From assembly GCF_038592905.1 (NCBI RefSeq), contig NZ_CP151943.1, forward strand, positions 2,717,001-2,781,000: DNA of 64,000 nucleotides, given 5' to 3'. Under the pieces are notes generated by a model. That model was not told the DNA's origin, ran no database searches, and was given only the letters and a program-made list of their open reading frames with translations. Position numbers and translations under genes: made by a program. This document shows, in pieces, positions 1 through 37,876 of the stretch. How positions within the stretch are numbered: position 1 is the stretch's first letter; each line of letters opens with the position of its first letter. The stretch comes from Neobacillus sp. FSL H8-0543. Its GTDB lineage: Bacteria > Bacillota > Bacilli > Bacillales > Cytobacillaceae.

Positions 1-370
1 GACACCATGGAGTCGTGAAGCATTTTATAATGAAATTAATAATAACAAATTTGCTGTCTATATTGTCCTTGAAGAAGATAAGAAAATTGTCGGATATTGT
101 GGGGCTTGGATTGTCATTGATGAGGCGCATATAACAAATATTGCAATTCTGCCTGAATACAGAGGGAGAAAGCTAGGAGAAGCGTTGTTACAGAAAATGA
201 TGACTACAGCCGAAGAAATGGGGACAAAGAGCATGACACTTGAAGTGCGTTTGTCAAATCACGTGGCGCAATCCTTATACCGAAAACTTGGTTTTCAGGA
301 CGGCGGGATTCGCAAAAATTATTATTCAGATAATCAAGAAGATGCTTTAGTTATGTGGGTGAACTTATGA
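1..370 (+). CDS. rimI: Ribosomal protein S18-alanine N-acetyltransferase RimI (partial, 5' end outside window)
   Basis: C-terminal part of a GNAT acetyltransferase, open from base 2 of the window to the TGA at 368-370. The visible part has the GNAT acetyl-CoA loop ([15 protein letters not shown]) and the late motif [18 protein letters not shown] followed by DALVMWVNL, typical of RimI. In the family the enzyme acetylates the N-terminal alanine of ribosomal protein S18. The stop overlaps the tsaD start as ATGA, which supports translational coupling, and rimI-tsaD is the usual Bacillus order. The N-terminus is missing only because the window starts inside the gene. Confidence 0.9.
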
Positions 371-1393
371 AAAAAGATCAGTGGATTATGGGAATAGAAA
401 CAAGTTGTGACGAGACTGCCGTTGCCATAATTAAAAATGGCCAGGAGATAGCGTCCAATGTGATTGCCTCACAAATTGAAAGCCATAAGCGTTTTGGCGG
501 GGTTGTTCCTGAAATCGCCTCTCGTCATCATGTTGAACAAATAACAATTGTCATTGAAGAGGCTATGAACCAGGCGAAGCTATCTTTTGAAGAGTTAGAT
601 GCAATTGCTGTAACAGCGGGGCCAGGATTAGTGGGAGCTCTATTAATAGGGGTAAATGCAGCGAAAGCATTAGCTTTTTCACATAATCTCCCGCTTGTTC
701 CAGTCCATCATATTGCGGGACATATTTATGCCAATCGATTGGTGACAGAGTTTAAATTTCCACTACTGGCATTAGTTGTATCTGGCGGACATACTGAACT
801 TGTATATATGAAGGAGCATGGGCATTTTGAAGTCATCGGAGAGACGAGAGATGATGCAGCAGGAGAAGCATATGATAAGGTAGCAAGAACGTTAAATATG
901 CCGTATCCGGGCGGACCGCATATAGATCGCTTGGCGCAGAGCGGCAGTGACACTCTTGATTTGCCAAGGGCTTGGCTAGAGGAAGGTTCGTATGATTTTA
1001 GTTTTAGCGGATTAAAATCAGCTGTGATTAACCGGGTGCATAATGCTGAACAACGTGGAGAGGTCATAGCGCCAGAGGATCTTGCCGCAAGCTTTCAAGA
1101 AAGTGTTATAGAAGTGTTGGTGAAAAAGACTGAAAGAGCGGTTGTTGAGTACAAAGTGAAGCAAGTGCTATTGGCTGGTGGTGTAGCCGCTAATAAAGGG
1201 GCTTAGGAAGGCACTGGAAAGCTCCTCTGCTGAAAAGGAAGGGATAGAGTTAGTCATTCCTCCGTTAGCGTTATGTACTGATAATGCGGCGATGATTGCT
1301 GCAGCTGGGAGTATTATGTTTGAAAAAGGTGTAAGGGCAGAGCTTTCTTTAAATGCAAACCCTGGTTTAGCTATTGAATTATATAATGAGTAA
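367..1393 (+). pseudogene. tsaD: tRNA N6-adenosine threonylcarbamoyltransferase TsaD, frameshifted as sequenced
   Basis: TsaD (Gcp/YdiE) is the catalytic ASKHA-fold subunit that makes t6A37 in tRNAs reading ANN codons. Seen: [14 protein letters not shown] at the N-terminus, the metal-binding motif [21 protein letters not shown], and [10 protein letters not shown]. The frame breaks in a run of four G at 1198-1201: after GGVAANKG it reads A-stop. Dropping one G restores GLRKALESS and the normal tail to [11 protein letters not shown] with TAA at 1391-1393, giving about 341 residues, the family length. I chose ATG 367, overlapping the rimI stop; GTG 355 is an alternative. Because t6A synthesis is essential or nearly so in bacilli, an assembly error is more likely than a real null allele. 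Confidence 0.9.
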
Positions 1394-1395
1394 AA

Positions 1396-1424
1396 AAGTC
1401 CTACTTAATAAGTAGGGCTTTTTT
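1396..1424 (+). terminator. Rho-independent terminator after tsaD
   Basis: An 11-bp stem with one G-T pair (AAGTCCTACTT / AAGTAGGGCTT, AAT loop) begins 3 bases after the tsaD stop and is followed by a T run. Confidence 0.85.
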
Positions 1425-1724
1425 GTGGATAGTTTATTTTCTAAAAATCTTCCTATTATGAAAAATGTGGATAAACACCCTGTAATCTGTTGATAATGTG
1501 GATAACTCAGGGTTATTTTGTGGATACTGTGGAAAAGTAAAAATAAAGTTGTTGGTACCAAATTTAATATGTGTATAAGTCTGTGGAAAAAGGGGGAGAA
1601 TGTTGAATTTTGTAGATAAACTAGGACTTTTTGTAGATAAATTGTCGTAGTTTGTAGAAATCGTAGAAGTATTTGTAGATATTCTGAAGTTATTTGTAGA
1701 TAACGGCCAATAATATGTAGAAAC
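1424..1724 (+). repeat. DnaA-box-like cluster with 21-bp phased repeats
   Basis: About fourteen 9-mers related to TGTGGATAA (reverse complement of the DnaA box TTATCCACA), all in one orientation. They start at 1424, 1466, 1488, 1497, 1519, 1528, 1570, 1582, 1611, 1632, 1653, 1674, 1695 and 1716. The copies at 1466 and 1497 are perfect boxes. The last six are TGTAGATAA or close variants, spaced exactly 21 bp, about two helical turns. In B. subtilis a stable DnaA-binding site has, as I recall, been mapped in the gcp-ydiF intergenic region, which is this locus. DnaA binding here is inferred from sequence. Confidence 0.75.
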
Positions 1725-1820
1725 CTATTCCACTATTGAAGTTCTCCGTTGTGTGTTTATATAAATCCACGGAATAAAATAAGAATAATAATAAATTAAT
1801 AAAAAGTGGGAGGGGACGTT

Positions 1821-2250
1821 ATGAAAAGAAGGTTTTTGGTACTGATTTCTATCGTATCCTTGTTTGGGTTTACGGCTTGTAATGAAGAGTCAAATAAACC
1901 AATTGATAATAAACCTATTGTTGACCCAGTGCCAGAAAAAGAAGAGGTAAAGGAATACCAAAATGAAGCTTTTCAACAGGTGGTTGTTTTAGAAAAGGAG
2001 GGGAACTTTGTTATTAAGGGGAAGGCGAGAGTGTTTGAAGGCGTCTTTCAATATGCGGTAGTAGCTGTGCGAGGATATTTTATTGCAGGATAAGTATCAG
2101 ACGGATGGTGCGCCTGCATGGGGGGATTTTGAAATAAGCATTGATAGGGAACTTGGAGAAAAAGAAGGAGTAGTACTGGAACTCTTCGTTTATTCAGCAA
2201 AAGATGGGGCGAAAGTTGATATCCTTTCCATTCCATTATCAGTTAAATGA
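1821..2250 (+). pseudogene. Gmad2-type lipoprotein, frameshifted
   Basis: Begins at ATG 1821 behind GGGAGGGG (1808-1815). The N-terminus MKRRFLVLISIVSLFGFTAC is a lipoprotein signal with lipobox FTAC, followed by a Pro/Glu-rich linker. FVIKGKARVFEGVFQYAVV starts an immunoglobulin-like Gmad2 domain, which occurs in spore-germination (GerM-like) and other secreted proteins. The frame is lost near 2066-2072 (an apparent +1) and stops at 2093. In the next frame EDILLQDKYQTDGAPAWGDF and a tail ending IPLSVK complete the domain, with TGA at 2248-2250. Restored length is about 142 residues. Either a recent pseudogene or a sequencing error; the exact function is unknown. Confidence 0.75.
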
Positions 2251-2282
2251 TACTAAGGAGAATTGGAAATAGCGAATTATAA

Positions 2283-3274
2283 AAGGAACTTTAGTTCCTA
2301 TGGTTACCGTCCTCACCGTTTTACAGGATTTACGGTCATCAAAGAGCTCCTATGGTTACCCCCTCGGCCTTTTACAGGATTTACGGTCACTAAAGAGCTC
2401 CTATGGTTACCGTCCTCGGTCTTTTACAGGATTTACGGTCATCAAAGAGCTCCTATGGTTACCGTCCACGGCCTTTTTCACGGTTCATGGTCATCAAAGA
2501 GCTCCTATGGTTACCGTCCAAGGCCTTTTACAGGGTTTATGGTCATCAAAGAGCTCCTATGGTTACCGTCCACGGCCTTTTACAGGATTTACGGTCATCA
2601 AAGAGCTCCTATGGTTACCGTCCTCGGCCTTTTACAGGGTTTACGGTCATCAAAGAGCCCTTATGGTTACCGTCCACGGCCTTTTACAGGGTTTACGGTC
2701 ACCAAAGAGCTCCTATGGTTACCGTCCTCGGTCTTTTACAGGATTTACGGTCATCAAAGAGCTCCTATGGTTACCGTCCACGGCCTTTTTCACGGTTCAT
2801 GGTCATCAAAGAGCTCCTATGGTTACCGTCCACGGCCTTTTACAGGGTTTATGGTCATCAAAGAGCTCCTATGGTTACCGTCCACGGCCTTTTACAGGGT
2901 TTACGGTCATCAAAGAGCTCCTATGGTTACCGTCCACGGCCTTTTTCACGGTTCATGGTCATCAAAGAGCTCCTATGGTTACCGTCCAAGGCCTTTTACA
3001 GGGTTTATGGTCATCTATGGTTACCGTCCACGGCCTTTTACAGGGTTTACGGTCATCAAAGAGCTCCTATGGTTACCGTCCACGGCCTTTTACAGGGTTT
3101 ACGGTCACCAAAGAGCCCTTATGGTTACCGTCCACGGCCTTTTACAGGGTTTACGGTCACCAAAGAGCTCCTATGATTACCGCCCTCGGCATTTTTCACG
3201 GTTCATGGTCATCAAAGAGCTCTTTTGAGTTCCGTTCTCATCTTTTTACGCGGTTACGATCATCAAAGAGCTTA
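2283..3274. repeat. 52-bp tandem repeat array (minisatellite), about 19 units
   Basis: Units are marked by GGTTACC at 2302, 2354, 2405, then every 52 bp to 2977, and at 3019, 3071 and 3123, with degenerate units at 3175 and 3227. One unit is 51 bp (2354) and one 42 bp (2977, ten bases lost). A 6-unit, 312-bp higher-order repeat is visible (the CTCGGTCTT variant at 2415 and again at 2727). The edge units are most diverged, as expected for an old array. The array abuts the ydiF stop codon. On the minus strand each unit reads AGGAG, seven bases, then ATG and 11 codons to TAA (see findings). On the plus strand all three frames are open for long stretches only because the unit lacks stops. Confidence 0.95.
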
Positions 3275-5194
3275 TCATTCCGCAATTTCAGCCCATTCTT
3301 CCATAAGGTGTTCCAGCTCATTTTTTGCTTTTTCGTTTTTTAGGTTAATTTCTAATACCTTTTCGTGATCCTGGAACACCTCAGGCTTACATAACTCGTC
3401 ATCATATTCTTGAATTTGTTCTTCAAGCTCTTCAATACGTAATTCAATTTCCTCTAACTTACGTTTACGCTGACGCTCGAGCTTTTTACTTTCCTTGTCC
3501 TGATGATAGGAGTTTTTCTCGAGTGTCTCCGTTTGAGTCATTTTTTTGCTCTGAGCAGCCTCTTCAAGTGCTTTAAGCTCAACTTGTTCGAGCTTTTTTT
3601 CTAAAAAGTAATCATAGTCCCCAAGATACTCGGAACTAGAGGTGCTGCTCAATTCTAATACCTTCGTTGCTATTCGATTAATGAAATATCTGTCATGAGA
3701 AACAAACAAGATGGTCCCAGGGTAATCTACTAAAGCATTTTCAAGAACCTCTTTACTATCAAGATCAAGATGGTTTGTTGGCTCGTCCAAAATTAGTACA
3801 TTTGCCTTCTCAAGCATCAGTTTAGCGAGTGCAAGCCGGGCTTTCTCGCCGCCGCTTAAGGTTGAGACAATTTTTAAGACATCGTCACCGGAAAAAAGAA
3901 AGTTACCCAATACCGTTCTAATTTCCTTTTCACTTGTTAGTGGATACTCATCCCAAAGTTCGTTCAATACACGCTTATTGGAAGTCAGTTCAGCCTGTTC
4001 TTGGTCGTAGTAACCAATAGCAAGATTGGCACCGTAGTGAATCGTACCTGTTAAGGCAGGCAATTTTTTAATAATCGTTTTTAAAAGTGTCGACTTACCG
4101 ATTCCGTTTGGCCCCACAAGGGCAATGCTCTCACTGCGATAGGCACGAAATGAGATATTCTCGGAGACTTTGTTGCCGTCATACCCAACAGCAAGGGAGT
4201 CGACGGATAATACATCATTTCCGCTTTGTTTTTCAATTTCAAAAGAAAAGGTGGCAGACTTTTCATCTCCTAGGGGACGGTCTAGGATTTCCATTTTTTC
4301 TAGTTTCTTTCGCCTGCTTTGGGCCCGTTTGGTGGTGGATGCCCGTGCTAGGTTTCGTTGAATAAAGTCATGGAGATTGGCAACCTCCTGCTGCTGTTTC
4401 TCAAAAACCTTCATATCACGCTCATAATTGAGCGCCTTTTGTTCAAGATAAGAGCTATAGTTACCAACAAATTTTTGAATTTGCCGCCTTGAGACCTCAT
4501 ATACCTGGGTGACTACCTTATCTAAAAAATAGCGGTCATGGGATACAATTAATATCGCCCCATCATACCCTTGTAAGTATTGCTCAAGCCAGGAGAGTGT
4601 ATCGATATCCAGATGGTTAGTAGGCTCGTCCAAAATTAATATATCAGGCTTAGTTAACAGCAATTTCCCTAAAGCCAGCCGTGTTTTTTGGCCACCGCTT
4701 AAGCTAGATATCATTTTTGTGCTTTCATGAAAATTTAACCCGTGTAAAATCGAACGAATATCCGCCTCGTACTGATAACCGCCCTGCTCCTTAAATTTTA
4801 CCTGGAGGAGGTCATATTCCTTTAAGATTTTCTCGAATCTTTCATTGTCTTCCAAAACGGTAGAATCCGACATTTGCTGTTCAAGTTGTCGAAGTGTTTT
4901 CTCCAAATTTCGAAGTGATTCGAAAACAGTCAGCATTTCGTCCCAAATCGACATATTTGATTCTAAGCCAGTATTTTGAGCTAGATAGCCAATCGTCACT
5001 TCTTTTGGCTTGATAATTTCCCCGCCATCATGTGATAGATGTCCGGCAATAATCTTTAAGAGCGTTGACTTCCCGGCACCATTACGCCCGACAAGAGCCA
5101 CGCGGTCCCTCGTTTGTAATTCTAGCTTAATATTCGATAAAATAAGGTCAGCGCCATAATATTTTGCTAATTGATTAACTTGTAATAAAATCAT
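3275..5194 (-). CDS. ydiF: ABC-F family ATPase YdiF
   Basis: A 639-residue soluble protein with two ABC domains and no membrane segment, hence an ABC-F protein, a class that acts on the ribosome and not in transport. Domain 1 has GRNGAGKST, LSGGQKTRLAL and LDEPTNHLDID. The linker (about residues 240-320) is rich in charged residues and includes RARAS-like RNA-contact sequence. Domain 2 has GPNGIGKST, LSGGEKARLAL and LDEPTNHLDLD. A C-terminal coiled coil (about 545-639) follows. I start at ATG 5194 because AGAGGTG lies 6 bases upstream; the GTG nine bases earlier lies inside that Shine-Dalgarno. The TGA is immediately followed by the 52-bp repeat array, with no simple terminator between. Confidence 0.92.
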   Translation of the reverse strand: MILLQVNQLAKYYGADLILSNIKLELQTRDRVALVGRNGAGKSTLLKIIAGHLSHDGGEIIKPKEVTIGYLAQNTGLESNMSIWDEMLTVFESLRNLEKTLRQLEQQMSDSTVLEDNERFEKILKEYDLLQVKFKEQGGYQYEADIRSILHGLNFHESTKMISSLSGGQKTRLALGKLLLTKPDILILDEPTNHLDIDTLSWLEQYLQGYDGAILIVSHDRYFLDKVVTQVYEVSRRQIQKFVGNYSSYLEQKALNYERDMKVFEKQQQEVANLHDFIQRNLARASTTKRAQSRRKKLEKMEILDRPLGDEKSATFSFEIEKQSGNDVLSVDSLAVGYDGNKVSENISFRAYRSESIALVGPNGIGKSTLLKTIIKKLPALTGTIHYGANLAIGYYDQEQAELTSNKRVLNELWDEYPLTSEKEIRTVLGNFLFSGDDVLKIVSTLSGGEKARLALAKLMLEKANVLILDEPTNHLDLDSKEVLENALVDYPGTILFVSHDRYFINRIATKVLELSSTSSSEYLGDYDYFLEKKLEQVELKALEEAAQSKKMTQTETLEKNSYHQDKESKKLERQRKRKLEEIELRIEELEEQIQEYDDELCKPEVFQDHEKVLEINLKNEKAKNELEHLMEEWAEIAE

Positions 5195-5387
5195 TTTTTT
5201 CACCTCTATTACTTAAAAATAGTGTAACCCATTCCAAGAAAGTCGGCAATAAAGTGGCATATAAATAAGGGAAATGGTCGGAGACTCAGAAGGGAAATAA
5301 TCAAATATCAATGTAATCGCTCAAAGTTTCACACACAGAATCCATAAAATAGTGTATTATTTGTATTGGTAGGGAGGATTTATTCAA

Positions 5388-5885
5388 ATGGCTGAATTTA
5401 CTCATTTTAATGAAGAAGGAAGAGCAAAAATGGTCGACGTTAGTGATAAGCCTGAAACGGCACGCACGGCACTTGCTCATTCCAGCATAACTGTAAATAA
5501 GGAAATATATCAAAAAATAACAAACAATGAAATGAAAAAAGGTGATGTCTTAGCCGTTGCGCAAGTTGCAGCAGTGATGGCAGCAAAGAAAACCTGGGAT
5601 ATTATACCGATGTGCCATCCGATACCTATTACTGGGGTGAATATTACCTTCGCTTGGGAACAGGAACAGGAGGATGCATATCGACTAACTATAGCTGCAG
5701 TTGTTAAAACAAAGGGAAATACAGGAGTGGAGATGGAAGCGCTAACAGCCGCATCTGCCGGTGCGCTAACCGTTTATGATATGTGTAAGGCAGTAGATAA
5801 AGGCATGGTAATTGGACCGACTTATTTGCTTGAAAAGACCGGAGGAAAAAACGGTGATTTTCATAGATCGGAACAAGTTAGATAA
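5388..5885 (+). CDS. moaC: Cyclic pyranopterin monophosphate synthase MoaC
   Basis: Second step of molybdenum cofactor synthesis: converts 3',8-cyclo-GTP, the MoaA product, to cyclic pyranopterin monophosphate. The 165-residue protein has the family blocks [26 protein letters not shown] and [13 protein letters not shown], containing the conserved catalytic Lys and Asp region. Length is normal. Start ATG 5388 has GGGAGG 11 bases upstream. It is followed after 31 bases by rex on the same strand. No other moa gene is in the window. Confidence 0.95.
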
Positions 5886-5916
5886 TTGCTAAAACGATAC
5901 TTTGGGGTGGATAATT

Positions 5917-6582
5917 ATGAGTAATGATACGATGAAAATACCGCAGGCAACGGCAAAACGGCTTCCATTATATTATCGTTTTTTAAAAAACCTGCATTCT
6001 TCAGGCAAGCAGCGTGTATCCTCAGCAGAGTTAAGTGAAGCGGTAAAAGTCGATTCTGCCACCATTCGCAGAGATTTTTCCTATTTTGGGGCGCTAGGTA
6101 AAAAAGGTTACGGCTATAATGTCAATTATCTGCTAACTTTTTTCAGTAAAACACTGGATCAAGATGAATTGACAAAAGTGGCGTTAATTGGGGTCGGTAA
6201 TTTAGGTACCGCATTTTTACATTATAATTTTCTGAAAAATAACAACACCAGGATTGAGTGTGCTTTTGATGTGGATCCTAATAAAATGGGAACAACCATT
6301 GGTGATGTTCCGGTTTATCCAATGGATGACCTAGAGAAATATTTAGGTAAAGATGAGATACCTGTAGCCATCCTAACGGTTCCTGCTTCTGTTGCACAGC
6401 CGATAACAGATAAATTGGTTCAGGCTAATGTGAAAGGAATCCTAAACTTTACTCCAGCAAGATTAAATGTTCCGCCTTCGATTCGTGTCCATCATATTGA
6501 CCTGGCCGTAGAGCTTCAGTCACTGATCTATTTCTTAAAGCACTATCCAACAGGTGAGATCGAAGAAGAAAATGAAGAATAA
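5917..6582 (+). CDS. rex: Redox-sensing transcriptional repressor Rex
   Basis: NADH/NAD-ratio sensor that represses fermentation and anaerobic genes when NADH is low. An N-terminal winged helix (about residues 5-80, [20 protein letters not shown] then [12 protein letters not shown]) is followed by a Rossmann domain with GVGNLGTA and a C-terminal domain-swap helix ([16 protein letters not shown]). I start at ATG 5917 (GGGGTGG at 5904-5910), giving 221 residues; an upstream GTG-frame extension lacks a ribosome site. In B. subtilis tatAy-tatCy follow rex; here they are absent and ydiK-ydiL come next, convergent. Confidence 0.95.
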
Positions 6583-6593
6583 GTAAATTTAAA

Positions 6594-6628
6594 ACCCGTT
6601 CACAAGTTTGTGAACGGGTCATTTTTTT
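6594..6628 (+). terminator. Terminator after rex
   Basis: Strong hairpin ACCCGTTCACAA / TTGTGAACGGGT followed by ATTTTTTT, 12 bases after the rex stop. Confidence 0.9.
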
Positions 6629-6672
6629 CCATATGAAAAAAATTACACGGTTGCAGAGATTGTTTTGATATT

Positions 6673-6873
6673 CTATTTTTTTATTTGATTTTTGTACTTA
6701 TTGTAAAAGAAGATAATTCTGATACCCGAACCGAAGTCAAAGGTAGCCAATATCACGAGTAAATAGCTAAAAAATCCCCAGCCATTCTGTGATACGTCCT
6801 CGATAGCAAAGTAAGTAAATAAACTACCGAGTAAGATATAAATGAATCCGGAAAACAATGGTGAACGTTTCAT
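6673..6873 (-). CDS. ydiK: Small membrane protein YdiK (DUF4305-like)
   Basis: A 66-residue protein with two hydrophobic segments (PLFSGFIYILLGSLFTYFAI and FFSYLLVILATFDFGSGIRI) and a basic tail. Size, composition and position next to ydiL match B. subtilis YdiK. Its ATG overlaps the ydiL stop by 4 bases (6870-6873), so it is the second gene of a ydiL-ydiK operon. No biochemical role is known to me. Confidence 0.75.
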   Translation of the reverse strand: MKRSPLFSGFIYILLGSLFTYFAIEDVSQNGWGFFSYLLVILATFDFGSGIRIIFFYNKYKNQIKK

Positions 6874-7598
6874 AAAAAGCCTCCGATAAAGTTTTGAATC
6901 GCCTCAGCTTCACGCATGAGTTTTTCTATTTCATCCTTATAAACGGTTTGCATCACCACGACCAAGGTGTTCATGGCAACGTGTGCAAATATGGGTACGA
7001 GTATGTGCTTGGTTTTTACGTAAAGAAAAGCAAACGTAAAGCCCATTGCCGAATAAAGGATGACGTGCTGTGGCTCCATATGGGCCAAAGCAAAGATAAC
7101 CGAGCTAATAAGTGCCGAAATGAAGAAGTTAAAGCGTTTATGAAGTGAACCAAAAATAATTTTGCGAAAAATAATTTCCTCTAAAATCGGTCCGATAATA
7201 GAGCTTACTAAAATAGCGAGTGGAAAGGACTCAATAATCCCCATAATTTGCTGGGTATTCTCTGAACCCATCTCCACGCCAAGGAAACGCTCGATATTCG
7301 CTGCCGTTGCTTGGGCAAACAAGGCTAAGAAGACTCCAAACACAGCCCAGACCGCGGAACCGGCAAATCCACTGCCCCGTTCATTTAAACGTGTTTTTTC
7401 GCTTTGCATTTCCCTTCGTAGGATGAAGAGGATGATCACTAATGCAATAGAAAAGCTAAATATTAACCAGTAGGGAACCACCAATGTTTGGTCCATACCT
7501 AAATATCCAAATAGAAAAGTCGTTCCAGGAATTCCTAATAGGCTCGATAACTGCATGCCGATATAGACAATTAATACAATCCAATATTCCCTTTTCAA
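6870..7598 (-). CDS. ydiL: CPBP-family intramembrane metalloprotease YdiL
   Basis: A 242-residue polytopic membrane protein of the CPBP (Abi/CAAX-protease-like) family. Seen are the EEIIFR motif, FALAHMEP, and HVAMN, which supply the Glu-Glu and His residues expected for the intramembrane metal site. About six to seven membrane segments. It starts at TTG 7598 with AAAGGAG nine bases upstream. Substrates are unknown; relatives act on prenylated or bacteriocin-related peptides, which I cannot infer here. Confidence 0.85.
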   Translation of the reverse strand: MKREYWIVLIVYIGMQLSSLLGIPGTTFLFGYLGMDQTLVVPYWLIFSFSIALVIILFILRREMQSEKTRLNERGSGFAGSAVWAVFGVFLALFAQATAANIERFLGVEMGSENTQQIMGIIESFPLAILVSSIIGPILEEIIFRKIIFGSLHKRFNFFISALISSVIFALAHMEPQHVILYSAMGFTFAFLYVKTKHILVPIFAHVAMNTLVVVMQTVYKDEIEKLMREAEAIQNFIGGFL

Positions 7599-7781
7599 AT
7601 TTATATTCTCCTTTAGAAGTCAATCATATTTATTTAGCCTATTATTCATTTTACTCTTAAAAGCTAGATTGTTTCAATTTAGAAGAGTTATCTTTAATTA
7701 TATGTATAAGAATTTTAATCTTTCATATACTTTTAAGGTTGTACAAATTTAACTTTTTTATAAAAAAATTTTGCTTCAGAC

Positions 7782-7847
7782 TTGCAAAAGTTTTGTTGAT
7801 TCATTATTATAATAATTGTGTTAGCACTCAGGGATAGAGAGTGCTAA
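7782..7847 (+). promoter_or_regulatory. groESL promoter with CIRCE operator
   Basis: A perfect CIRCE inverted repeat, TTAGCACTC (7821-7829), nine-base spacer, GAGTGCTAA (7839-7847), the binding site of the HrcA repressor. Upstream is a sigma-A promoter, TTGCAA (7782-7787), 17 bases, TATTAT (7805-7810). The operator covers the start-site region, so groESL should be repressed by HrcA and induced by heat. Confidence 0.95.
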
Positions 7848-7887
7848 TAATGTCAGAATTACATAATTTTTGAGGAGGTTGTTTGAT

Positions 7888-8175
7888 TTGTTAAGACCAT
7901 TAGGTGATCGTATTGTCATTGAGCTTGTTGAATCAGAAGAAAAAACTGCAAGCGGTATCGTTTTACCGGACTCAGCTAAGGAAAAGCCTCAGGAAGGAAG
8001 AGTTGTTGCCGTAGGTACGGGTCGTGTACTTGAAAGCGGAGAACGTGTAGCTCTTGAAGTTTCTGTTGGTGACCGCATTATCTTCTCAAAATACTCAGGT
8101 ACAGAAGTGAAGTATCAAGGAGCAGAATATTTAATCTTACGTGATAACGATATCCTTGCTGTCGTAGGCGAGTAA
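7888..8175 (+). CDS. groES: Co-chaperonin GroES
   Basis: The 95-residue 10-kDa lid of the GroEL folding chamber. The sequence starts [12 protein letters not shown], has the mobile-loop region [22 protein letters not shown] and ends ILAVVGE. The start is TTG 7888, with AGGAGG at 7873-7878 nine bases upstream, as in B. subtilis; the longer upstream frame (MRRLFDL) lacks support. First gene of the groESL operon. Confidence 0.97.
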
Positions 8176-36604: not shown

Positions 36605-37876
36605 ATGAGCGGCTATAACGCAGTATCAGCAAAAAATACGGAAAATGCTCCAAACGGTAACGGTCTATATTCACAAACGGTAGCTTTCTCTCATTACAAT
36701 CATCTTTCAGCTCAATTACCTATCGAACCCAAAACTGGTAAATTGGTAGCTGGTGGTATAAAAGAGCAAGCTGAACAGTGCTTTAAAAATATCAAGGCAA
36801 TTGTAGACAGCATCGATCATGTTATGAGCGATATTGTTAGAATCACGGTATTTGTTAAGGATATCAAAGATATTGACGCTGTAGACGAAGTTTATAAAAC
36901 ATTCTTCCCAACCTATGTTCCTTCACGGACAACCGTTGCAGTTGCAGCTTTGCCTATGGATGCTTTGGTGCAAATTGAAGCAGTTGTTTCACACGGTGAA
37001 GGTACAATTCCAAACGCACCACAAGCAGGCGACCTTATAAAGCTTACAAATAACACGGCAAATGCACCAACAAGTCCTCTATCTACACAAACCGTGTCTT
37101 TCTCTCATTACAATAATCTTTCAGCTCAATTACCTATCGATCCGAAAACTGGTAGATTGGTAGCTGGCGGTGTAAAAGAGCAGGCTGGACAGTGCTTGAA
37201 AAATATCAAGGCAATTTTAGAAAGTATTGACGTTCCTTTTGACGATATTGTTAAAATTAATATCTTTCTTAAAAACCTTTCGGATACTGAAGCAGTAAAT
37301 GAAGTTTATACAACATTTTTCCCAGACTCGGCTATTGCCAGGGCTGTAGCCTATGTCCCTGCGCGGACAACAGTTGCAGCTTCAGCTTTACCTATGGATG
37401 CTTTGGTACAAATTGAAGCAGTGGTGTCACACGGAGATGGTACACCCCCACAAGCTGTTGAAGACAGACATGGAATCGTTATATGGGCAAACAACACTGA
37501 AAATGCACCAAAGAGTTCTCTATCTACACAAACTGTAGCGTTCTCTCATTACAATAACCTTTCAGCTCAATTACCGTTGGATCCAAAAACTGGTGAATTG
37601 GTAGCTGGCGGTGTAAAAGAGCAGGCTGATCAGTGCTTGAAAAATATTAAGGCAATTGTAGAAAGTATCGACCACGTTATGGACGATGTGGTTAAAGTAA
37701 ATATCTTCCTTAAAAATATCGCGGATATTGATGCTGTAGACGAAGTTTACAAAACATTCTTCCCAGGCGGTGTTCCTGCACGAAGAACAGTTGGCGTATC
37801 AGCTTTACCTGAAGATGCTTTAATCCAAATAGATGCAGTTGTATCAAATGCTGAAGGAACACCTCCAAAAGCATAA
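36605..37876 (+). CDS. Triple-domain RidA/YjgF-family protein
   Basis: 423 residues made of three tandem RidA domains (about 1-140, 141-288, 289-423) that are very alike also at DNA level. Each has SHYN(H/N)LSAQLP, KTG.LVAGG.KEQA.QC.KNI, and the P(S/A)R(T/R)TV segment with the Arg equivalent to E. coli RidA Arg105, then ALP.DAL.QI.AVVS. RidA hydrolyses reactive enamines/imines and normally works as a homotrimer with active sites between subunits, so this chain could be a covalent trimer. Domain 2 has an extra eight or so residues before VPARTTV. Start ATG 36605 behind AAAGGGG. Confidence 0.88.
   Translation: MSGYNAVSAKNTENAPNGNGLYSQTVAFSHYNHLSAQLPIEPKTGKLVAGGIKEQAEQCFKNIKAIVDSIDHVMSDIVRITVFVKDIKDIDAVDEVYKTFFPTYVPSRTTVAVAALPMDALVQIEAVVSHGEGTIPNAPQAGDLIKLTNNTANAPTSPLSTQTVSFSHYNNLSAQLPIDPKTGRLVAGGVKEQAGQCLKNIKAILESIDVPFDDIVKINIFLKNLSDTEAVNEVYTTFFPDSAIARAVAYVPARTTVAASALPMDALVQIEAVVSHGDGTPPQAVEDRHGIVIWANNTENAPKSSLSTQTVAFSHYNNLSAQLPLDPKTGELVAGGVKEQADQCLKNIKAIVESIDHVMDDVVKVNIFLKNIADIDAVDEVYKTFFPGGVPARRTVGVSALPEDALIQIDAVVSNAEGTPPKA

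Follow-up and report, generated by a model that had tools for sequence, protein, structure and literature searches.

The 52-bp tandem array that lies behind ydiF in Neobacillus sp. FSL H8-0543 belongs to a family of tandem hairpin arrays, present in several genera of the order, in which fold and length are constrained and the peptide is not. The repeating unit comprises a 31-nt hairpin and a linker of approximately 21 nt with an A-tract, arranged head to tail about every 52 nt. The hairpin follows a common plan, consisting of a GG foot, usually a 2 × 2 internal loop (TA/GC), a variable arm of 4–6 pairs, and a purine-rich loop. The window, i.e., the whole stretch of DNA that was analyzed (64,000 nt), corresponds to positions 2717001–2781000 of the 5.30-Mb genome G000, and the features relevant here are as follows (window coordinates):

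2283..3272, minus strand: tandem array of 19 units of approximately 52 bp (one of 42 and one of 51), a member of the hairpin-array family (TRF, nhmmer chain, unit model R1)
2332..3183, minus strand: 16 matches to the 31-nt hairpin, from 2332–2362 to 3153–3183, mostly 52 bp apart (model R2, E 1.9e-5 to 6.7e-3)
2284..2299, minus strand: terminator-like hairpin AGGAACTAAAGTTCCT plus TTTATAATTC on the same strand as ydiF, at the array end distant from that gene (consensus scan)
3275..5203, minus strand: ABC-F ATPase gene (ydiF), its stop abutting the array and its usual terminator missing (Pfam, NCBIfam)
1821..2252, plus strand: small lipoprotein-like gene converging on ydiF, its frame interrupted at 2091 and followed by several later stops (stops shown)

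The window array and its reading frames

The array noticed in the first-pass annotation is real: TRF reports a 52-bp unit in 19.0 copies at 2296–3272 (88% matches, score 1434), and the 18 unit-to-unit steps of the nhmmer chain comprise 16 of 52, one of 42, and one of 51. The full 11-codon frame on the minus strand is present in 16 of the 19 units, as was claimed, and both peptide classes described there are seen, with V/I/D/L/C variants. The frame is shifted in the unit starting at 2413 and ends in an early stop in the one at 2362, and the end unit at 2310 is truncated; the unit at 3027, although shortened by 10 bases and without the Shine–Dalgarno-like stretch, still has an intact frame. The TAA of this micro-ORF is part of the conserved GGTAAC foot, its ATG or GTG lies in the 3′ arm, and the AGG-rich letters lie in the hairpin loop. 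As read from the sequence, the stem is partly degenerate in the window array (T11.T21 mismatch); the A/T-tract of the unit lies approximately 8 nt away from the stem. The array directly adjoins the ydiF stop (3275), and no terminator-like site was found between the two, in agreement with the earlier description, and none was found within the array by the consensus scan of 1380–5400, which called 6 sites vs. 4.3 expected in shuffles. The terminator-like hairpin at 2299–2284, absent from that description, lies beyond the array.

In relatives, the ydiF 3′ end looks different. A ydiF match is present in 61/61 genus genomes, and a terminator-like hairpin lies within 110 nt of the ydiF stop in 29 of the 30 3′ regions examined (permissive scan; two are weak, G043 and G056); G000, with its array directly at the stop codon, is the sole exception. 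The terminator is present in G046, the closest relative among these genomes (92% identity over this portion of YdiF). Because the other 29 regions carry such a hairpin, the window array appears to have been acquired recently, in coincidence with loss of the ydiF terminator. A 51- or 52-nt repeat occurs elsewhere in the same interval in G039, G052, G001, G054, and G022, its family membership being at most a judgment by eye.

Several side observations concern the surrounding genes. The first piece of the lipoprotein-like gene has a weak, below-cut-off match to Gmad2 (E 0.0044). The tsaD frame (355–1392) is open to 1206 only and its NCBIfam match ends at profile position 273 of 314; the rest apparently continues in another frame, whether through a sequencing error or a genuine disruption of the gene. 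Degenerate TTTGTAGAT(A) repeats occupy 1560–1730 (TRF 1651–1702, period 21), and several relatives also have a repeated TATCGACAAA in the tsaD–ydiF interval (by eye). A 441-bp tandem repeat of 1.9 copies lies at 36912–37766, inside a 423-aa ORF at 36605–37876.

The family unit is defined by fold and length, and its peptide is without sign of selection. In-frame stops occur in 13 of 47 arrays vs. 13.4 expected from column shuffles, and likewise in other frames (one unit each from arrays with at least two units, five single-unit arrays being dropped). Among the distinct changes within arrays, 141/542 are synonymous (0.260 vs. 0.260 expected) and 34 create stops, in 43 arrays with at least three units and excluding units that differ from their own array at more than 14 places; the synonymous excess that the first-pass annotation had suggested looking for is therefore lacking. 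The start codon is missing in 7/52 arrays, the frame is complete in 33/52, and all four signals are present in the representative unit of 5/24 dnaB arrays. Selection on a micro-ORF peptide was rejected because stops match expectation, the synonymous fraction equals its expectation, and starts and frames are lost. A translated array of micro-ORFs, or an element that loads ribosomes, on the framework strand is accordingly most improbable: the 16 intact window frames and the commonly AGG-rich loops would suit it, as would the statement of a 2026 paper that ribosomes are consistently recruited by expressed STAR motifs of Staphylococcus aureus (PMC13009471), but the relatives freely lose start, stop, and frame, the outcome that the first-pass annotation had named as refuting this reading. 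Incidental translation initiation on array RNA may nevertheless occur. The long plus-strand ORFs through the array (347, 321, and 257 aa) arise because 52 mod 3 = 1 lets the frame rotate; they were rejected as genes, with no Pfam match above cut-off and no significant deficit of reverse-frame stops relative to shuffles (lowest P 0.083).

Fold and length across genomes

A pattern search of G000 added two 52-bp arrays: L002 (5.8 copies) follows dnaB, and L033 (26.3 copies) follows a histidine-kinase-like gene; ydiF, tsaD, and NERD identities were checked by profile, whereas the dnaB, purA, and histidine-kinase genes are what we take them to be partly by eye. The units of both arrays have GGTAACCAnAGG...GATGCCC...AAAAA in common with the window array, and their interiors differ. 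The anchor-pattern search was positive in 10/61 genus genomes and the sequence-only model R1 in at least 21/61 (E ≤ 0.001), or 27/193 at family level (E ≤ 1e-4). R1 is biased by its GGTAACC anchor, with 4 genomes represented at dnaB among R1-assembled arrays vs. 24 real ones. Array-bearing relatives named in a scan with the anchor-biased pattern include Neobacillus, Cytobacillus, Robertmurraya, Fredinandcohnia, and strains filed as Bacillus. From the matches listed, 52 arrays were assembled at 52 loci, all selected for carrying hits; 274 of their 313 unit steps are exactly 52 and 24 are 51. The arrays are homogeneous internally and differ from one another: identity between non-orthologous arrays is 0.87 in the framework columns, which were author-chosen and in part set by the search anchor, and 0.42 in the interior. 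In the draft genome G006, three arrays (L112, L117, and L059) lie at contig ends; arrays may therefore break assemblies and be under-counted in drafts.

The dnaB 3′ gap was followed in all 61 genus genomes by motif-free autocorrelation (periods 30–89). The best period is 52 in 24/61 genomes, with repeat identities of 0.65–1.00; in all, 25 gaps have a repeat of at least 0.65 identity, the exception to period 52 being G028 with 42. Its dnaB–purA gap (L171) holds a different repeat of approximately 42 nt (AATGAGCCAATGAAGTG...). A NERD-domain gene (Pfam) in opposite orientation lies between dnaB and purA (L162–L222) and is matched in 23/61 genomes, counted as sequence matches irrespective of intact frames: the matches are partial in G022 and G054 (178 and 197 aa), and the open frame in G000 is 247 aa only. 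The array is present in 22 of the 23 genomes with a NERD match and in 0/36 without; the one match without an array, in G057, is a 108-aa piece. In the array genomes G011 and G018, the contig ends inside the dnaB gap, and these two are counted neither with the 23 nor with the 36. The remaining 36 genomes have neither, and purA follows dnaB after 178–552 nt. Since NERD proteins are as little as approximately 49% identical (49–97% for full-length pairs among the matches listed, 150 of 163), the dnaB array has persisted, or has been gained anew, for a long period. On the dnaB side, a terminator lies ahead of the array; between the NERD stop and the array, none is evident by eye in 21/22 genomes, and a weak NERD-side terminator was called by the permissive scan in G006 (L113).

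Arms and linkers vary between these dnaB genomes while pairing and the 52-nt step stay. Exchanged arm pairs include GAAT/ATTC, TAGT/ACTA, CATA/TATG, and CAAA/TTTG, pair 2-30 changes from C-G to A-T, and the internal loop is closed to G-C and A-T in some genomes. In set A3 (one dnaB-locus unit per genome, chosen by score on columns 3, 4, 6–8, 25, 27–29 and the A-tract), 88.3% of cells are paired vs. 71.7 (sd 1.8) in shuffles, 39 cells are changed on both sides vs. 15.6, and covariation is 0.450 vs. 0.154 (each 0/500). The shuffles retain the relatedness of the genomes, and the better control, in which partners are slid by 1–3 columns, yields a covariation of 0.066 at most. Two of the five covariation measures are not above shuffles, namely both-side-changed pairs (6 vs. 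5.4) and further pair types (14 vs. 13.3). Pairs 3-29, 4-28, and 7-25 are partly ascertained because the score used their columns, the arms being unaffected; for the six pairs outside unit selection, 128/144 cells are paired vs. 88.4 (sd 4.6) expected (0/2000 shuffles). Corrected mutual information ranks 11-21 (0.85), 9-23 (0.81), and 2-30 (0.62) highest of all column pairs, followed by 23-38 (0.60), which is outside the fold. RNAalifold predicts the hairpin unaided on set A3 and no fold on set A1. Across 51 arrays, columns 1–31 are more stable than when column-shuffled (reverse z -4.5, forward -2.0), whereas whole units are not (forward +1.65, reverse -1.68). A second hairpin in the linker is unsupported (forward z +2.4, reverse -0.05), and a CsrA-like GGA loop was rejected, the loop letters being too variable. 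Wobble pairs point to the reverse strand at 8-24 but to the forward strand at 1-31 and 2-30; taken together they support neither strand, and hence do not favour RNA over DNA.

Model R2, a covariance model of the 31-nt hairpin alone that is ignorant of the period, was built from the dnaB locus of 24 genomes, including G000. In G000 it yields 112 matches (E ≤ 1), most of them, by eye, in runs at 52-bp steps. Autocorrelation at 13 further G000 places gave a best period of 52 in nine, including 499–501 kb (29.2 copies by TRF), 569, 1566, 2027, 2071, 3915, and 4462 kb, another period at another spot in one, and none in three. Across the order, R2 matches (E ≤ 0.01) occur in 39 of 299 sampled genomes and 22 of 116 genera, with two or more matches in 30 genomes and approximately three single matches expected by chance. 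Each of the seven order-wide loci that were opened has GG..A..CC units 51, 52, or 53 apart, two loci having two units only.

Genomic setting and competing explanations

Neighboring genes were taken as simple ORF picks, and both were called for 47 arrays, of which 26 lie in convergent, 16 in co-directional, and 5 in divergent gaps. By contrast, array-free gaps of at least 60 nt at the same loci are convergent in 34/243 and divergent in 67/243 (divergent, p = 0.016). Arrays thus favour convergent gaps, and 17 of 30 independent loci are convergent. Terminators on both sides are found for 5/23 convergent arrays vs. 21/46 array-free convergent gaps (p = 0.068, orthologous arrays included), which suggests a weak association of arrays with missing flanking terminators.

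Our preferred explanation, to which we give slightly less than an even chance, is that the array is a nucleic-acid structure working at gene 3′ ends, above all between converging transcription units. Transcripts reading through the array would fold into consecutive hairpins, which may mark or protect the 3′ end and limit transcription into the opposite gene; the tandem copies would provide robustness and be renewed by slippage. In the window, the array would stand in for the ydiF terminator that is missing there. The micro-ORF, its start, and its Shine–Dalgarno stretch are by-products of the hairpin framework. This role is suggested by the convergent enrichment, the co-occurrence of array and NERD gene at dnaB, and the lost ydiF terminator where the array abuts the stop; points against it are the terminator before the array at dnaB, the arrays in divergent gaps, the absence of terminator-like sites inside the window array, the distance between A/T-tract and stem, the weakness of the flanking-terminator association, the two covariation measures at shuffle level, the undecided wobble pairs, the unexceptional stability of whole units, and the lack of an RNAalifold fold on A1. 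The mRNA-element reading among the three offered in the first-pass annotation would be close to this explanation.

The main rival, which we regard as a real but lesser possibility, is a self-renewing hairpin minisatellite without host function, whose arrays survive only where they are harmless, i.e., in 3′ gaps. Fold and period would be selected by the copying itself, because folded units on the lagging-strand template would duplicate by slippage or template switching. The homogeneity inside arrays and their differences from one another fit such copying, and so does the apparently recent gain at ydiF. Furthermore, the framework strand is the leading-strand sequence, and hence the lagging-strand template, in 25/28 arrays of six ori-mapped genomes (via dnaA, with ter taken as opposite and G000 single or both-strand sites excluded) and, by GC skew, in 28/34 loci (p = 2e-4). 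However, approximately 75% of genes lie on the leading strand, and 25/28 against that baseline gives p = 0.055; convergent loci alone reach 12/17 (p = 0.14), and the window, 4462k, and G035 arrays are oriented the other way. The array is also kept at dnaB in all but one of the NERD-matched genomes, although NERD proteins differ by up to about half. The option left open in the first-pass annotation, a minisatellite with incidental signals, can be retained for the signals, as can the unit anatomy given there; "simply a minisatellite", by contrast, seems insufficient, since at the orthologous dnaB locus the sequence is replaced but fold and length persist.

An element acting as DNA, either as a cruciform or as an array bound by protein, that would deal with supercoiling or with fork/polymerase encounters between convergent genes in the manner of gyrase-bound BIMEs, appears unlikely. 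The 52-bp step would correspond to five helical turns, so that all hairpins would face one side; the step of 51–53 at the order-wide loci that were opened, the convergent enrichment with arrays also in divergent gaps, and the lack of an overall strand preference in wobble pairs are consistent with it. A protein site should keep its letters, yet both arms are exchanged, and no binding factor was identified. Returning to the preferred 3′-end role, its broadest form would make the arrays a new kind of gene-end insulator: an order-wide Bacillales extragenic element with its identity in fold and length (31-nt hairpin, 21-nt linker, five-helical-turn spacing), preserved by selection where convergent genes end at orthologous places, even as its arms, loops, and linkers change, and able to replace an intrinsic terminator. 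We consider this broader proposal doubtful.

Ordinary repeat searches and Rfam miss repeats that conserve fold and length with little sequence, and a motif-free test at one locus revealed such constraint in 24 genomes. Should the arrays function at gene ends, they would join terminators and Rho as a bacterial means of dealing with converging transcription; otherwise, they offer a natural model of repeat turnover driven by hairpins. In both cases, they account for the apparent micro-ORF array.

Relation to known repeat systems

At gathering score, Rfam 15 gives no match in window 1–8000 or in 12 array loci, and the only sub-threshold match over the array (up to E 5) is RF00437, with 16.6 of 60 bits. 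A literature search, whose coverage was outside subscription papers, found no recognized description of 52-base hairpin arrays. A phage or plasmid origin was rejected, there being no blastn matches in phages or plasmids; viral contigs gave 0 and 2 pattern hits, the latter (L160 and L161) both without a unit-model match and L160 inside a 495-aa ORF. The arrays are not CRISPR arrays, in which spacers are unrelated, unlike the repeated linkers here. The MIRU minisatellites of mycobacteria are intergenic units with small ORFs and translation signals; by contrast, the ORF here is unconserved and the fold conserved.

In anatomy, STAR elements and REP/BIME palindromes come closest to the arrays. The STAR elements of S. 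aureus, as described in the sections consulted, are direct repeats between genes that combine a conserved motif with a locus-specific spacer of 40–44 bp, often in tandem at approximately 50 nt, with variable copy number, spacers homogeneous within a locus, a patchy distribution between species, an association with ribosome-binding signals, and no function described there (PMC3532100, PMC13009471). The present arrays resemble them in being tandem intergenic units with locus-specific spacers, as reflected in the framework and interior identities of the author-chosen columns. However, the STAR motif TNTGTTGNGGCCC occurs as an exact pattern in 0/52 arrays, and in the window none lies inside the array, two-mismatch matches being all at chance level. 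Furthermore, STAR loci differ between species according to those sections, whereas the dnaB locus is common to 24 genomes, and the compensatory hairpin and fixed step found here are unmentioned in those same sections (PMC3532100, PMC13009471).

REP/BIME elements are palindromes of 20–40 nt that lie mostly between convergent or co-directional genes, are many per genome, and are not conserved in sequence between species, some REP clusters being likewise reiterated in tandem (PMC3733652, PMC6006769, PMC2817692). The arrays share with them the intergenic position and the convergent or unidirectional neighbors (42/47 arrays). They differ in that GTAG/GTGG lies 0–2 nt from the hairpin foot in 16/363 units, with half or more of the units in 3/52 arrays and CGTC once, and in that units run head to tail on one strand, whereas BIMEs alternate. 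A Y1 (RAYT-type) transposase was rejected as the driver: PF01797, a count that pools RAYTs with the IS200-type, is present in 58/61 genomes irrespective of arrays and in neither of the array-bearing G048 and G036. By the features tested, the arrays belong to the bacterial extragenic palindromic or tandem repeats as a member of neither REP nor STAR.
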